Assembly: GCA_002840095.1 (NCBI GenBank)
Contig: PGZL01000013.1
Coordinates: 1-64,000, forward strand
Direction of reading: 5' to 3'
From: Gammaproteobacteria bacterium HGW-Gammaproteobacteria-1
GTDB taxonomy: Bacteria; Pseudomonadota; Gammaproteobacteria; Thiohalomonadales; Thiohalomonadaceae
DNA: 64,000 nucleotides
The notes beneath the pieces were generated by a model, which had not been told where the DNA came from, did not search any database, and saw only the letters and a program-made list of their open reading frames with translations. Below are positions 1,048 to 27,580 of this stretch, one piece after another. Position 1 is the first letter of the stretch. Every line of letters begins with the position of its first letter. A program made the translations under genes and the position numbers.

Positions 1048-1176
1048 CAGATACAAGATACAAGTGAAAAGATACAAGGGAATGAACTCGCTGCGCTCGT
1101 GCTGTTTCTGAATTCAAACAACCGTGCGCGCAGCGCACTCCTCCACTTGTATCTTGCAACTTGTATCTTGTATCTG
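1048..1176. repeat. Family A hairpin element A1 (7-nt GATACAA units)
   Basis: A 129-nt imperfect palindrome. The left arm is CAG followed by 7-nt units GATACAA, GATACAA, GTGAAAA, GATACAA and then GGG; the right arm is its inverted counterpart. The core is a second imperfect hairpin (GAACTCGCTGCGCTCGTGC against GTGCGCGCAGCGCACTC) with GAATTC in the loop. It fills the gap between two convergent genes almost exactly, starting 2 nt after one stop and ending 3 nt before the other. It may act as a bidirectional terminator. Confidence 0.9.
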
Positions 1177-1179
1177 GTT

Positions 1180-1497
1180 TTAGGCCCTGCCCACGTTGCT
1201 GTCGGTGGGGGAGTGGAAATATTCGCTGCCGGAGGCCAGCTCCTCGGTGGTCTGCAACAGCTCGGCCAGGCGCGCCTCGGCAGTGCTGAGCGGCGCGCAG
1301 TCCTCACAGCGCGGATCGCCGCAGGGCTGGCGGGAGAACAGCCAGTACTGGATGGCGCCGGCCAGCAGGCCGTCGGCGACATCCCAGATGTCGGCCTCGG
1401 GATCGTCGTTGGCGATGCGGTTGCCCAGCTCCACCGCTTCCCGTGCTGCCTCGTCGTATACGCTATCGTCTTCGTCCATCGAATCCATCGTCAGCAC
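1180..1497 (-). CDS. Small conserved acidic protein, unknown function
   Basis: A 105-residue soluble acidic protein with no signal peptide or membrane segment. A cluster CGDPRCEDC near the middle could bind a metal. I do not recognise the family. The next gene upstream on the same strand is the DUF2288 gene, 21 nt away, so the two are probably co-transcribed. In-frame ATGs lie at 1497 and 1488. The upstream sequence CTGAGAGAGTGCTG supplies only a weak ribosome-binding site. Confidence 0.65.
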   Translation of the reverse strand: MLTMDSMDEDDSVYDEAAREAVELGNRIANDDPEADIWDVADGLLAGAIQYWLFSRQPCGDPRCEDCAPLSTAEARLAELLQTTEELASGSEYFHSPTDSNVGRA

Positions 1498-1518
1498 TCT
1501 CTCAGGGAATTGAACAGT

Positions 1519-1833
1519 TCAGGAGTCCAGCCGCGGCTGCACTTCCTGGATCACCACCCAGGGCGCCACCACCACCGCCCAGAACACCGCCTGGCGCGCA
1601 TGCCAGTCGCGGGCCTGCTCCGCGTCGGCACGCGTCACCTGCCCCGCCTGCATCCAGGCAGCCAGCGCCGCGCTGTCGTCGCGGGCCATGGCATGGGCCA
1701 CGTCGATCAGGTCCATGCCCGGCGCCACCGCCACCACCACACCGCGGGCGAAATGGCGCTCCAGCTCGGGCCAGCCGATTTGGGCCGTCTCGCTGTTGAG
1801 CTTGGCCCGCAATTCCTGTTCCTGCTCACTCAT
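1519..1833 (-). CDS. DUF2288 family protein
   Basis: A 104-residue cytoplasmic protein. It matches the DUF2288 pattern by recognition: LRAKLNSETAQIGWPELERHFARG, then DLIDVAHAMARDD, and a C-terminal hydrophobic stretch AVFWAVVVAPWVVIQEV. The function of the family is unknown. It is the first gene of a probable two-gene unit with the acidic protein at 1180-1497, and is divergent from the cysteine-cluster gene at 2061. Confidence 0.82.
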   Translation of the reverse strand: MSEQEQELRAKLNSETAQIGWPELERHFARGVVVAVAPGMDLIDVAHAMARDDSAALAAWMQAGQVTRADAEQARDWHARQAVFWAVVVAPWVVIQEVQPRLDS

Positions 1834-2060
1834 GACATCACACCGCGAATCGGGCCGGCCATTCTAGCGCATAAATTCCCCGGCCCGTTCCCCGTCCATC
1901 CTGCCCAGCGGAATCGGGTGCCCGCCATTGGGCACAGGCCTTACGTCCGGACGCCGCCACGGCCGCTAAAAAATACCCCGCGCCCCTCTCCCCGCCGGTA
2001 AATCCCGGCGCTATAATCCGCGCGCCCTTCCCCCCGGGTCTTCTTGTCAGGAGGCTAGCC

Positions 2061-2441
2061 GTGGACAATCCCTGTCTGCGGTGCGGCGCGTGTTGCGCCC
2101 ATTATCGTGTGTCGTTCTACTGGACCGAGGCGGATCCCTTCCTCGGCGGCACCGTACCGCCCGAACTCACCGTCCCGCTCAATCCCACCCGCGCCGCCAT
2201 GCGCGGCACCCTGCATGCGCCGGTGCGCTGCGTCGCCCTCGACGGCCACATCGGCGAGACCGTGAGCTGCACCATCTATGCAGGCCGCTCCTCGCCCTGC
2301 CGCGAACTGGAGCCGTGGGAGGAGGACGGCCAACCCAACGAACGCTGCAACAGGGCGCGCGCCGCCCACGGCCTGCCGCCGCTGGACCCGCGCAGCGACA
2401 AGCCGGGACCGGGCCACTCGCCGCTGCCGCTAAGCGCGTGA
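2061..2441 (+). CDS. YkgJ-family cysteine cluster protein
   Basis: A 126-residue protein of the YkgJ zinc/iron-chelating family. The N-terminus carries a dense cluster C-x2-C-x2-CC, and the C-terminal half has further cysteines in CTIYAGRSSPC and ERC, the usual layout of the family. The start is GTG at 2061, chosen because AGGAGG lies six bases upstream. A perfect -10 hexamer TATAAT sits at 2012-2017, though no good -35 is visible. The physiological role is unknown. Confidence 0.85.
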   Translation: MDNPCLRCGACCAHYRVSFYWTEADPFLGGTVPPELTVPLNPTRAAMRGTLHAPVRCVALDGHIGETVSCTIYAGRSSPCRELEPWEEDGQPNERCNRARAAHGLPPLDPRSDKPGPGHSPLPLSA

Positions 2442-22299: not shown

Positions 22300-22944
22300 A
22301 TGAATCCCGTCAATCATTATCGCCAGGCCCAGTTCCTGCTCGGTGCCCAGCACCTGCGCCAGCTACCGGCGGACAACGGCATCGAGGTGGCCTTTGCCGG
22401 CCGCTCCAATGCCGGCAAATCCAGCGCGCTCAACACCATTACCGCCATCAAGGGCCTGGCGCGCACCAGCAAGACGCCGGGGCGCACCCAGCAGATCAAC
22501 CTGTTCGGCCTGGGTGAGGGCCATCGCCTGGCCGACCTGCCGGGCTATGGCTATGCCAAGGTGCCGCCGGCCATGAAGGAGCACTGGCGCAAAACCCTGG
22601 AGCAATACTTCAACACCCGTGACTGCCTGCGCGGCCTGATCCTGCTGATGGACGTACGCCATCCCCTCACCGAGTTCGACCAGGTCATGCTGCAATGGTG
22701 TCGTCACCGCAACATGCCGGTGCACGTGCTGCTGACCAAGGCGGACAAGTTCAAACGCGGCCCGGCCTCCGCCGCCCTGCAACAGGTGAAGCGCTTTCTG
22801 GCCGACTATCCGGAGGCCTCGGTACAGCTGTTCTCGGCCCACAACGGCCAGGGCGTGGACGAGGCGCGGGCGCTGCTGGACCGGTGGTTCGGCTATGACG
22901 GCGCTGAGCCGGCGCCTGCCGATCCGCTGCAACCGGCAGGCTGA
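22300..22944 (+). CDS. engB: Ribosome-biogenesis GTPase EngB (YsxC/YihA)
   Basis: A 214-residue GTPase of the TrmE-Era-EngA-EngB family. The P-loop is [10 protein letters not shown]3 is DLPGYG and G4 is TKADK. It acts in large-subunit ribosome assembly. The C-terminal extension ([13 protein letters not shown]) is variable in the family. It is divergent from the cytochrome operon and convergent with the candidate small RNA. Confidence 0.95.
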
Positions 22945-22962
22945 CGCCGGCTTCACGGGGAC

Positions 22963-23006
22963 AAAAAAAACCCCGGCGCCAAAAAAGGGGGGTAGGCGGC
23001 CGGGGT
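22963..23006 (-). terminator. Intrinsic terminator of the candidate small RNA
   Basis: On the minus strand an ACCCCGGC...GCCGGGGT stem, extended by GCC/GGC across a bulge, closes a loop containing CCCCCC and TTTTTT and is followed by a run of eight U residues. No minus-strand protein gene ends nearby (the next upstream one stops 330 nt away), which points to a non-coding transcript. Confidence 0.7.
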
Positions 23007-23142
23007 CTATCAAGTCGCCCGGCTTAGGGGGAGCAAGCCGGGCCGTTGTTCCCACCAGGGAGAGAAGAGTGGGAAAGCGCAGTGCGCTTGCAAGATGAGA
23101 CTGGGCCGTTCCGGAAAAGTTCTGCAATCCGCCAATTGCACC
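22963..23142 (-). ncRNA. Candidate small RNA at the polA-engB locus (Spot 42/ErsA position)
   Basis: Roughly 180 nt on the minus strand, inside the 398-nt gene-free stretch 22945-23342. Going 5' to 3', it has a small hairpin (23075-23089), a hairpin CCCAC/GTGGG with loop TCTTCTCTCCCTG (23051-23073), a perfect 9-bp hairpin with loop GCTCCCCCT (23017-23043), and a terminator with eight U residues. C-rich loops of this kind pair with ribosome-binding sites in known regulators. Gene order matches the Spot 42 locus of enterobacteria and the ErsA locus of Pseudomonas. The 5' end is inferred from the promoter. No conserved reading frame is evident. Confidence 0.55.
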
Positions 23143-23149
23143 ATTAAAT

Positions 23150-23177
23150 ATATTAATGAGTAGATTAGTCTGACCAA
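23150..23177 (-). promoter_or_regulatory. Putative promoter of the candidate small RNA
   Basis: On the minus strand TTGGTC (23172-23177) and TAATAT (23150-23155) are separated by 16 bp, in an A+T-rich patch. Transcription would begin near 23142 and end at the terminator around 22963. Confidence 0.4.
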
Positions 23178-23342: not shown

Positions 23343-24701
23343 TCAATCCTGATTCGTCATAAAATCCAAGACATACTGTCGCATCAGGCGCGACCGGCTC
23401 GATTCAAGGCGCGCCAAATCCAGGCGCCCTTCTCTCTTGGCCTCCAATAACTGGTAAATAAGCGGATAGCACTGCTCGGGCTCGTAGCTGACGAGGATGA
23501 GATCGACACCCGCGCCAAGTGCGCTCACCGCTGCCTTTCCCATACCGCCGTCGAGATAATACAGCCCAGCCATCGTGAAATCGTCGGTGATCAATATGCC
23601 ATCAAACAGCCATTGTTTACGTAACACATCCGTGACAACCGATGCCGAGATTGAAACCGGATTTTCCGGATCGACGGTGGCAAGATGCACGTGGGAAAGC
23701 ATGATGGCAACACCAGGATTCTTTGCCAACTCTTGGAATGGAATCCAGTCGGTCCGTAGAAGCTCCGCCATAGAGGTAGTCAATGCTGCATTTTCCTGAT
23801 GCGTGTCGTTATATACGCGACCGATACCCGGAAAGTGCTTTGCGGTGCAGTGAATCCCTGCGCGCAGCAGTTCACCACAATAGATACTGGCCACTTCCGC
23901 AATCTGTACCGGATCATCTGCAATGGCCCGACTGTAGATGCGCGAATACTTGTCAGCCGGATTGATAACGCCATGATTTACGTCAACCACCGGCGCAAGG
24001 TTGAGATTCACCCCGATCTGACTGAGTTCAGTGGCGTGAATGCGGGCATAATTCGCGATCGCCTCGGTGCGCTGTGCCAGATCAGCATTGGCAGAGACGA
24101 TCGATGCGAGAGGCGGAAGCTGTGTCAACGGCGGCGACAGTCTCGAAACGAAACCACCCTCCTGGTCGGCTGCTATCCATAACTGGACCAACTCCGCTCC
24201 TGACAACTGCCTCAATTTTTTCAGTTCGGCAATTTCGGCGGCAACCATGTCCATGGTTTTGCCGCGTACATTCCGCGCGGTGATGAATACACCACCTACA
24301 GCCCGTTTTTCGAGAAGGGTTCGCAACTCATCAAGATCGGTATATCCGACAACAATGTGGTTTCCTATTGCCTCTAACTCCAATGGGTCGGCAGAGAGAA
24401 CCTGATATCGCATCCACTGGAATCGACCTTCTCGCATTACGAACGCTGCAAAAGCAGCCAAGGCTACCACTGCAACAAACCTGCCGGACCACTGCAGCCA
24501 ACGGCTCCGCCCGAGAGCCAGAAACACGCCAATCCAGACGAAAACAGCCGTCGCAGACAATAAGCCGCCGAGCAGGCCATAACGCCAGTCAGGCGATAGC
24601 GGGGAACGCCAATCCAGGGCGACAACCAGCAGCGGGACAACAACGACTACGGCTGCTACTGCGATGGCCGATTGAAGGACATATCTGGATTTTTCGTCCA
24701 T
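23343..24701 (-). CDS. Membrane-anchored glycoside hydrolase family 3 protein (NagZ-like)
   Basis: A 452-residue protein. About three N-terminal membrane segments (residues 8-105) are followed by a GH3 domain with IAADQEGGFVSRL, KHFPGIG and the nucleophile region ILITDDFTMAGL. It resembles beta-N-acetylhexosaminidases that trim peptidoglycan fragments, though NagZ itself is cytoplasmic and lacks the anchor. Its base composition is clearly lower in G+C than its neighbours, which suggests acquisition. It lies between polA and the candidate small RNA. GGAGAT precedes ATG 24701. Confidence 0.85.
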   Translation of the reverse strand: MDEKSRYVLQSAIAVAAVVVVVPLLVVALDWRSPLSPDWRYGLLGGLLSATAVFVWIGVFLALGRSRWLQWSGRFVAVVALAAFAAFVMREGRFQWMRYQVLSADPLELEAIGNHIVVGYTDLDELRTLLEKRAVGGVFITARNVRGKTMDMVAAEIAELKKLRQLSGAELVQLWIAADQEGGFVSRLSPPLTQLPPLASIVSANADLAQRTEAIANYARIHATELSQIGVNLNLAPVVDVNHGVINPADKYSRIYSRAIADDPVQIAEVASIYCGELLRAGIHCTAKHFPGIGRVYNDTHQENAALTTSMAELLRTDWIPFQELAKNPGVAIMLSHVHLATVDPENPVSISASVVTDVLRKQWLFDGILITDDFTMAGLYYLDGGMGKAAVSALGAGVDLILVSYEPEQCYPLIYQLLEAKREGRLDLARLESSRSRLMRQYVLDFMTNQD

Positions 24702-24862
24702 GGCATCTCCACTTGCCAGCAGCTTGTCAACCGTCCATGTGGGAACAATCCAATAGACGCCATCCCACCACCACACATCTCTTCTGCTTATCCACGTCCT
24801 GCGCTTCGAGCATGCACCCTGTGCAGCGGGAAGTTGATGGAACGCGATGCGCCCCGCAAAAT

Positions 24863-27580
24863 TCAGTGGGCCTCGTCCCAGTTGTTGCCCACCCCAGCCT
24901 CCACCAACAGCGGCACCTTGAGGTCCGCAGCGCCCGCCATCAGGCGCGGAATCTCCACCCTGGCCTTGTCCACGTAATCCTCCGCCACCTCGAACACCAG
25001 TTCGTCGTGCACCTGCATGATCATGCGCACCTTGCCCGCCGTGTCCTGCTGCCAGGGATCCACGGCCAGCATGGCGCGCTTGATGATATCGGCGGCGGTG
25101 CCCTGCATGGGCGCGTTGATGGCGGTGCGTTCGGCGTACTGGCGGCGCTGGGCGTTGCTGGCCTTGATGTCCGGCACGTAGAGGCGGCGGCCGAACACCG
25201 TTTCCACGTAGCCCTGCTCGCGCGCCCGCTCGCGGGTCTCGTCCATGTAGCGGCGCACGCCGGGGTAGCGCTCGAAATAACGGTCGACATAGGTCTGCGC
25301 CGCGGCGCGATCGATACCCAGCTGGCGCGCCAGCCCGAAGGCGGACATGCCGTAGATCAGGCCGAAGTTGATGGCCTTGGCGGAGCGGCGCATGTCGGCA
25401 TCCACTGCCTCCGGTGTGACGCCGAACACCTCGGCGGCGGTGGCGCGGTGAATGTCTTCGCCGGCGGCGAAGGCCTTGAGCAATCCCTCGTCACCGGAGA
25501 GGTGTGCCATGATGCGCAGTTCGATCTGCGAATAGTCGGCGGCCAGTAATTTGTAGCCGGGCGGGGCGATGAAGGCCTGGCGGATGCGGCGGCCCTCGGC
25601 GGTGCGCACCGGGATGTTCTGCAGGTTGGGGTCGGTGGACGACAGGCGGCCAGTGGCGGCCACTGCCTGCTGATAGGAGGTGTGCACCCGGCCGCTGCGT
25701 CGGTCCACCTGCTCGGGCAGGCGATCCGTATAGGTGGACTTGAGCTTGGCCATGCCGCGGTGGTCCAGGATCAGGCGCGGTAGGTCGTAGCCGTCCAGGG
25801 CCAGCTCCTGCAACACCTCCTCCGCCGTGGAGGGCTGGCCCTTGGGGGTCTTCTTCAGTACCGGCAATTGCAGGCGCTCGAACAGGATCTCCTGGATCTG
25901 CTTGGGCGAGCCCAGGTTGAACGGGCCTTCCGCCACCTTGTAGGCCGCCTGCTCAATTTCGTTCATGCGCAGGGCCAGTTCGCCGCTCTGGCGCCGGAGC
26001 ATGGCCACATCCACCAGCACGCCGGTGCGCTCCATGCGCGAGAGGATCGGCACCAGGGGCAGTTCGATCTCCTCATATACCCGCTTCAGCGCCGGCTCCG
26101 CGGCGACCCGCGGCCACAGGGTCTGGTGCAGTTGCAGGGTGATGTCCGCGTCTTCGGCGGCATATTCCGCCGCCTGCTCCAGGGGCACCTGGTTGAAGGT
26201 GAGCTGTTTGGCGCCCTTGCCCGCCACCTCCTCGAAGCTGATGGTCTTGCGCCCCAGGTATTTGAGGGCCAGGGAATCCATGTCGTGGCGGGTGGCGGTG
26301 GAGTCCAGCACATAGGACTGCAACATGGAGTCATGGGCGATGCCGCGCAGGGTGATGTCGTGGTTGGCCAGCACGCTCATGTCGTATTTGAGGTTCTGCC
26401 CCAGCTTGGGGACGGCCTGGTCTTCCAGCAAGGGGCGCAGCCGTTCCAGCACCGCGCTGCGGTCAAGCTGATCGGGGGCGCCGGGATAGTCGTGCGCCAG
26501 GGGCACATAGGCGGCCTGCCCCGGGATCACCGCAAAGGACACACCGACGATCTCCGCCTCCATATAGTCCAGGCTGGTGGTCTCCGTATCGAAGGCAAAC
26601 AGGTCGGCGGCGGCCAGGCGTTCCAGCCAGGCATCCAGCTGTGCCGTGGTCAGCACGGTGTCGTACTGCCGTTCCACGGCCGAAGCCTCCGGTGTCTGCG
26701 GCGCTTCCGGGGCCTCCTTCCCCTCCAGCAGGTCGCCCAGCCAGGTCTTGAACTCCATGCGCCCGTACCACTCACGCAGGGCGGCGGTGTCGGGTGCGCT
26801 GCGCCGCAAGTCCTGCGGACGCTGTTCCAGCGGCACATCGCACTTGATGGTCACCAGGCGGCGCGACAGCGGCAGGAAGCCGAGGCTTTCCCGCAAGTTG
26901 TCGCCAATCTTGCCCTTGATGGCATCCGCATGGGCGACGATGGCATCCAGCGAGCCGTATTCCTGCAACCATTTTACCGCCGTCTTCGGTCCCACCTTGG
27001 GCACCCCGGGCACGTTGTCGCTGGTGTCGCCGATGAGGGCGAGGTAGTCGACGATGCGCTCCGGCGGCACGCCGAATTTCTCCTCCACCCCGGCCGGGTC
27101 CAGCACGGTGTCGGTCATGGTGTTGACCAGGGTGACGTGGCCGTCCACCAGCTGGGCCATGTCCTTGTCGCCGGTGGAGATGAGCACCGGCATCCCGGCG
27201 GCGGCGGCCTGCCGCGCCAGGGTGCCGATGACGTCGTCCGCCTCCACGCCCTCGACCATCAGCAGCGGCAGGCCCATGGCGCGCACGATGTCGTGCAGCG
27301 GTGCGATCTGGCCCGCCAGCTCCGCCGGCATGGGCGGACGATGGGCCTTGTACTCGGCATAGAGCTCGTCGCGGAAGGTCTTGCCCTTGGCGTCGAACAC
27401 CACCGCCACGTGCGTCGGGTCATAATCGTTGAGCAGGCGGCGCAGCATGTTGACCACGCCGTAGACCGCCCCGGTGGGCTCGCCGCGGGAGTTGGTCAGG
27501 GCCGGCAGGGCGTGAAAGGCACGGTAGAGATAGGAGGAGCCGTCCACCAGGACCAGCGGTTTGCGCTTTGTATCGGACAT
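24863..27580 (-). CDS. polA: DNA polymerase I
   Basis: A 905-residue polymerase. The N-terminal 5' nuclease domain (about 1-290) includes [16 protein letters not shown]. The 3'-5' exonuclease domain (about 310-500) keeps [10 protein letters not shown]. The polymerase domain has [16 protein letters not shown] and the C-terminal [10 protein letters not shown]. Length and motifs are complete. It fills Okazaki-fragment gaps and acts in repair. It is divergent from the LOG-family gene. Confidence 0.97.

Follow-up and report, generated by a model that had tools for sequence, protein, structure and literature searches.

Which gene occupies the gap that faces the 3' end of engB in the 64,000-nucleotide stretch of DNA analysed here (the window), and to which of the small RNAs (sRNAs) known from this address in other bacteria is it related? 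A sequence-only reading had placed a candidate sRNA with C-rich loops on the minus strand between polA and engB, spanning 22963-23177, and had drawn attention to Spot 42 and ErsA, which are encoded at the corresponding position elsewhere. Comparison with relatives leads us to conclude that positions 22963-23090 of the minus strand are a real, conserved sRNA gene with C-rich loops, for which the fold, promoter class, synteny and kinship could all be established computationally (Table 1).

Table 1. Features of the sRNA locus, ordered along the forward strand of the window
Feature	Position	Strand	Evidence and remarks
engB (yihA) GTPase gene	22300-22944	plus	Pfam MMR_HSR1 and engB search; convergent neighbour of the sRNA
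sRNA gene, ~128 nt	22963-23090	minus	Start inferred from the -10 element, +/-2 nt; R1/R2 match, fold, covariation
Intrinsic terminator	22963-23006	minus	Hairpin 22971-23006 with CCCCCC in the loop (22987-22992), then T8 (22963-22970)
Hairpin 2	23017-23043	minus	Loop with CUCCCCCU at 23026-23033; fold and covariation
Hairpin 1	23050-23074	minus	Loop with CUCUCCCU at 23057-23064; fold and covariation
5' hairpin AAGCGC-ACU-GCGCUU	23075-23089	minus	Fold; covariation in 6/6 pairs
-10 element TCTCA, 16-nt spacer	23096-23100	minus	Conserved in relatives
-35 element GAACTT, sigma-E/AlgU-type	23117-23122	minus	Fixed distance conserved in relatives
Glycoside hydrolase family 3 gene	23343-24776	minus	Pfam Glyco_hydro_3; between polA and the sRNA
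polA	24863-27580	minus	Pfam DNA_pol_A and exonuclease domains; upstream of the sRNA, same strand

The proposed polA–engB location is right in that the sRNA faces the 3' end of engB and has polA upstream, but a glycoside hydrolase gene intervenes on the polA side. Among the loci read, this insertion occurs in this genome only; in relatives, L011, L012 and L013 among them, polA stands immediately upstream of the sRNA. Both of the described hairpins with their C-rich loops, and the terminator with CCCCCC in its loop, are present on the minus strand where the sequence-only reading had put them, and the terminator with its eight T residues serves that strand only. The minimum fold of 22963-23100 reaches -58.7 kcal/mol (z = -4.7), a stability equalled by none of 200 dinucleotide shuffles. 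A standard terminator scan of the window missed the sRNA terminator, probably because its loop is larger than the 8-nt limit of the scan.

Conservation was assessed with two covariance models, both of which match the window at 22962-23090. MAFFT alignment of all transcripts, tried as the first seed, mispaired the stems, and we therefore started from a five-sequence seed that was extended with its own model. The narrower model, R1, was built from five same-genus transcripts; it recognises the RNA in the remaining family copies that were tested, and also at the majority of the loci that the Rfam ErsA model had picked out, the Pseudomonas-like locus L039 being one of the latter in which it found no match. 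The broader model, R2, comprises 31 sequences, the window RNA and its relatives. Searched at E <= 0.01 against 274 gammaproteobacterial genomes spread over the class, R2 has matches in 139. Where both a match and engB were listed, the match lay within 0.7 kb of engB in 69 of 86 genomes, and 64 of these 69 were convergent at the engB 3' end; the matches in the other 17 were mostly on a different contig from engB, as in the Pseudomonas-like genome G180, where the match adjoins polA.

The stems are maintained by compensatory change. Two-sided changes occur in 28 of 33 stem pairs of the R2 alignment, in which 94% of cells pair (75% when shuffled), and in 31 of 33 pairs of a second sequence set (90% against 60%), counts that lean upward because both alignments were fitted to the structure. 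An alignment of five sequences made by MAFFT only holds four two-sided pairs, with 1.3 expected. The loops are likewise kept: CUCC is found in loop 1 of 30 of the 31 relatives (11 expected), CCC in loop 2 of 30 (24 expected) and in loop 3 of 29 (22 expected). Loss of the loops and terminator in relatives with the same gene order had been named as an outcome that would speak against the candidate; both are conserved in such relatives, and on the side of conservation the proposal thus stands.

Some genomes carry more than one copy. Four tandem copies lie at 1089-1842 (-) of locus L040 (genome G189); the promoter reads GAACTC-N16/17-TCTGA in three of them and is weaker in the fourth. The sX13 model gives one of these copies 48.3 bits, and others are matched by the anti-hemB or ErsA models. 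Groups of two or three adjacent copies are found in G040:C49, G187:C35, G280:C3, G168:C7, G279:C1, G143, G146, G259, G091 and G258, and in multi-copy genomes some copies are distant from engB. At 2260-2376 (+) of L021 (genome G033) the gene is inverted to the strand of engB and has its own promoter, GAACTT-N16-TCATA.

The promoter is the point at which our account departs from the sequence-only reading, which had assigned TGGTCA/TATATT (23176-23147). This pattern is present, with a sigma-70-like score of 9/12, but four same-genus relatives have not retained it: their counterparts of the -35 read TGGTTA, TGGCCG or TGGCTG, and in L011 and L013 runs of A stand in place of the -10; as the sRNA promoter it is probably wrong. 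GAACTT-N16-TCTCA, by contrast, is conserved even in distant relatives, and all four same-genus relatives have GAACTT-N16-TCNNA just 5' of the first hairpin. The sigma-E/AlgU consensus is GAACTT, 16 nt, TCNNA. Given this conserved promoter, an sRNA gene does lie within the span first proposed, but its extent is ~22963-23090 rather than 22963-23177. Exact sites of this strict promoter form number only three in the whole genome, the sRNA promoter among them. Over 58 copies of the RNA, a count in which four genomes enter twice and the own-family copies were first chosen with help of the promoter motif, 29 promoters match all nine scored bases (0.05 expected) and 47 match at least eight (1.3 expected). 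Among 24 independent copies in named genomes, found by the RNA model alone, 18 score at least eight of nine (0.35 expected); the promoter lies outside that model, mostly 4-9 nt ahead of its first position. We consider the sigma-E-type promoter well supported by these comparisons.

The genome has the corresponding regulatory setting. It encodes RpoE (312 bits), with genes downstream of rpoE that resemble mucA/rseA, mucB, mucC and mucD (muc names from sequence and gene order), and rpoE itself has a promoter of the same type, GAACTC-N16-TCTAT; an Hfq gene is also present. It would appear that the sRNA is induced by the sigma factor of the envelope stress response. An AT-rich inverted repeat (ATTAATATATTTAAT, 23143-23157), located upstream of the -35, could be an UP element or a site for a regulator; same-genus relatives have ATTAA-N5-TTAAT or a similar sequence. 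A short dispersed element, GGACTTAT or ATAAGTCC plus GTCCATCC, recurs intergenically in the genus, with sites downstream of engB in L010 and L011 and upstream of rpoE in L191.

Because the sRNA shares its strand with polA and the hydrolase gene, the hairpins could instead be the 3' untranslated region or terminator of that transcript, and the RNA a processed or untranslated tail lacking a promoter of its own. We regard this as highly improbable in view of the conserved promoter at a fixed distance inside the gap, the tandem copies of L040 that each have their own promoter, the presence of four helices rather than a single terminator, and the status of ErsA and sX13 as experimentally known RNAs.

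The identity of the RNA is less evident from existing families, since Rfam at its curated cut-offs returned no match anywhere in the window. Below those cut-offs, the window RNA scores 23.5 bits (E 0.024) with ErsA of Pseudomonas (Pseudomon-1, RF01719; gathering cut-off 50), 29.0 bits with anti-hemB (Burkholderia RNA 7, RF02837; cut-off 49.5) and 19.8 bits with sX13 of Xanthomonadaceae (RF02232; cut-off 50). The search nevertheless works in both directions for ErsA. Of 20 loci fetched with the Rfam ErsA model, mostly below its cut-off, 16 have the match adjacent to engB or polA, and R2, whose training set was free of any identifiable Pseudomonas sequence, detects a copy next to engB at seven named loci of Pseudomonas, at four of which, all that were scanned, Rfam calls ErsA. 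Like the window RNA, ErsA is convergent with engB in the polA–engB gap with the same polarity, has a sigma-E/AlgU-type promoter (GAACTT-N17-TCATA in L039) and carries C-rich loops in its last two hairpins. They differ in that ErsA has a U-rich unstructured domain between its first two stem-loops, which it uses for amrZ and anr, whereas the window RNA has hairpin 1 with CUCUCCCU instead (PMC8575079 for ErsA). ErsA depends on AlgU and is a repressor of algC and oprD (PMC8395346, PMC6321483). Orthology of the window RNA to ErsA is, on these grounds, well supported. At 23.5 bits the RNA falls short of the gathering score and is therefore not filed as a member of RF01719; it belongs to the ErsA-orthologous lineage, yet lies outside RF01719, RF02232 and RF02837 by their curated cut-offs.

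Of the two relatives that genomic position had suggested, ErsA is thus borne out by models in both directions, by synteny and by promoter type, while Spot 42 (spf, RF00021) is not. In Pantoea and Vibrio loci, Spot 42 is encoded in the corresponding gap and, with respect to polA and engB, on the corresponding strand, but its covariance model gave no match to the window at a limit as loose as E <= 10, nor did R2 match Spot 42. Sequence kinship between the two is undetectable, and a relationship is not supported beyond position.

The same models draw in two further families. R2 matches the sX13 of genome G183 at 42.6 bits, at the coordinates of the 116.7-bit Rfam match, and did not recover the sX13 place in G031, the other sX13 genome. 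sX13 resembles the window RNA in its three stem-loops with C-rich apical loops and in adjoining polA; loop 1 has CCCC in sX13 and CCC in the window RNA. Unlike the window RNA, the two sX13 loci read (L102 and L103) have no clear sigma-E promoter. They share a conserved upstream block, TTCACGAACCATCAATGT...GGTGGTGTTATAG, distinct from the sigma-E consensus, and control may for that reason have switched in the sX13 lineage. All 15 places above the Rfam cut-off for anti-hemB are also R2 matches, the R2 training set having included two loci above that cut-off, L046 and L048, both engB-linked. In Gallionella and Nitrosomonas (L168, L177) the RNA lies between engB and hemB (named from sequence), convergent with engB as in the window and, at both loci, with a sigma-E-type promoter; one anti-hemB locus that we read has no clear sigma-E site. 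The anti-hemB RNA also resembles the window RNA in a hairpin loop, CCUCCCU. On its far side anti-hemB adjoins hemB, where the window RNA has the hydrolase gene and polA; the sRNA thus kept its place beside engB as the neighbourhood changed. The alphaproteobacterial RNAs alpha r7 and alpha r14 likewise have three stem-loops and C-rich apical motifs, alpha r7 lying near polA (PMC3771888); their models (RF02342, RF02344) score 22.7 and 32.8 bits with the window RNA, both below cut-off.

Taken together, ErsA, sX13 and anti-hemB look like branches of a single sRNA family of Gammaproteobacteria and Betaproteobacteria that is linked to engB and largely under sigma-E control. Rfam 15 gives the three no common clan, and a literature search covering few subscription journals found no earlier published link between them. 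Shared locus and fold could in principle arise without homology, if C-rich loops and GC-rich terminators evolved repeatedly and the models cross-detect by composition; weak matches to the unrelated C-rich Rfam families ar14, 6C and Scr3202, and weak anti-hemB matches in 5 of 14 control genomes, point that way. Composition does not, however, predict the concentration beside engB, on one strand and with one promoter type, and the ErsA and sX13 models match none of the 14 controls, so that we hold independent origins to be unlikely. A still wider scenario would have the gene tied to engB since the common ancestor of Gammaproteobacteria and Betaproteobacteria as an arm of the sigma-E response, with ErsA, anti-hemB, sX13 and the window RNA as descendants and Spot 42 as a highly diverged, CRP-switched one (Spot 42 is CRP-repressed in E. 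coli; PMC8672173); this we put forward as a doubtful, if conceivable, extension.

Our preferred explanation, which we judge probable as a whole, is that the window encodes a sigma-E-induced, trans-acting sRNA, orthologous to ErsA, anti-hemB and sX13, whose C-rich loops repress mRNAs. Envelope stress would free sigma-E (AlgU/RpoE), which would transcribe the RNA from GAACTT-N16-TCTCA; the RNA would then fold into the 5' hairpin and three hairpins that expose CUCUCCCU, CUCCCCCU and the terminator CCCCCC as single strands. These loops would base-pair with G-rich stretches, either ribosome-binding sites or enhancers, in several mRNAs whose translation would then fall, with net repression; experiments have shown this mode of action for sX13 and, at the algC site, for ErsA. 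Expression, sigma-E dependence, loop–mRNA pairing and the existence of targets are all attributed to the window sRNA by analogy with its relatives. Repression by ErsA is Hfq-dependent. That the C-rich loops bind ribosome-binding sites, as the sequence-only reading had proposed, is plausible in the light of ErsA and sX13. Duplexes of the loops with the start sites of hfq, a porin, two PGM/PMM genes, rpoE and rseA had energies inside the background range given by 52 window ORFs, the best-ranked start site being that of rpoE (top 12%), and we therefore claim no target. The loops might alternatively titrate a protein or another RNA, given that repeated similar loops resemble multi-site decoys and that several genomes hold multiple copies. 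Yet reporter repression by the sX13 loops goes through G-rich motifs in mRNA, independently of Hfq (PMC3771888), ErsA pairs with mRNA (PMC5819304, PMC8575079), and the GGA carried by decoys of Csr/Rsm proteins is missing from the loops, which makes titration very unlikely.

The significance of the window RNA extends beyond this genome. About half of the 274 sampled genomes carry such an RNA, usually beside engB and for the most part preceded by a sigma-E-type promoter, and three Rfam families that were named separately in different bacteria are now joined. This suggests that an envelope-stress sRNA resides at a predictable address in many bacteria in which no sRNA has been studied, a prediction that the covariance model and the promoter rule make directly testable.
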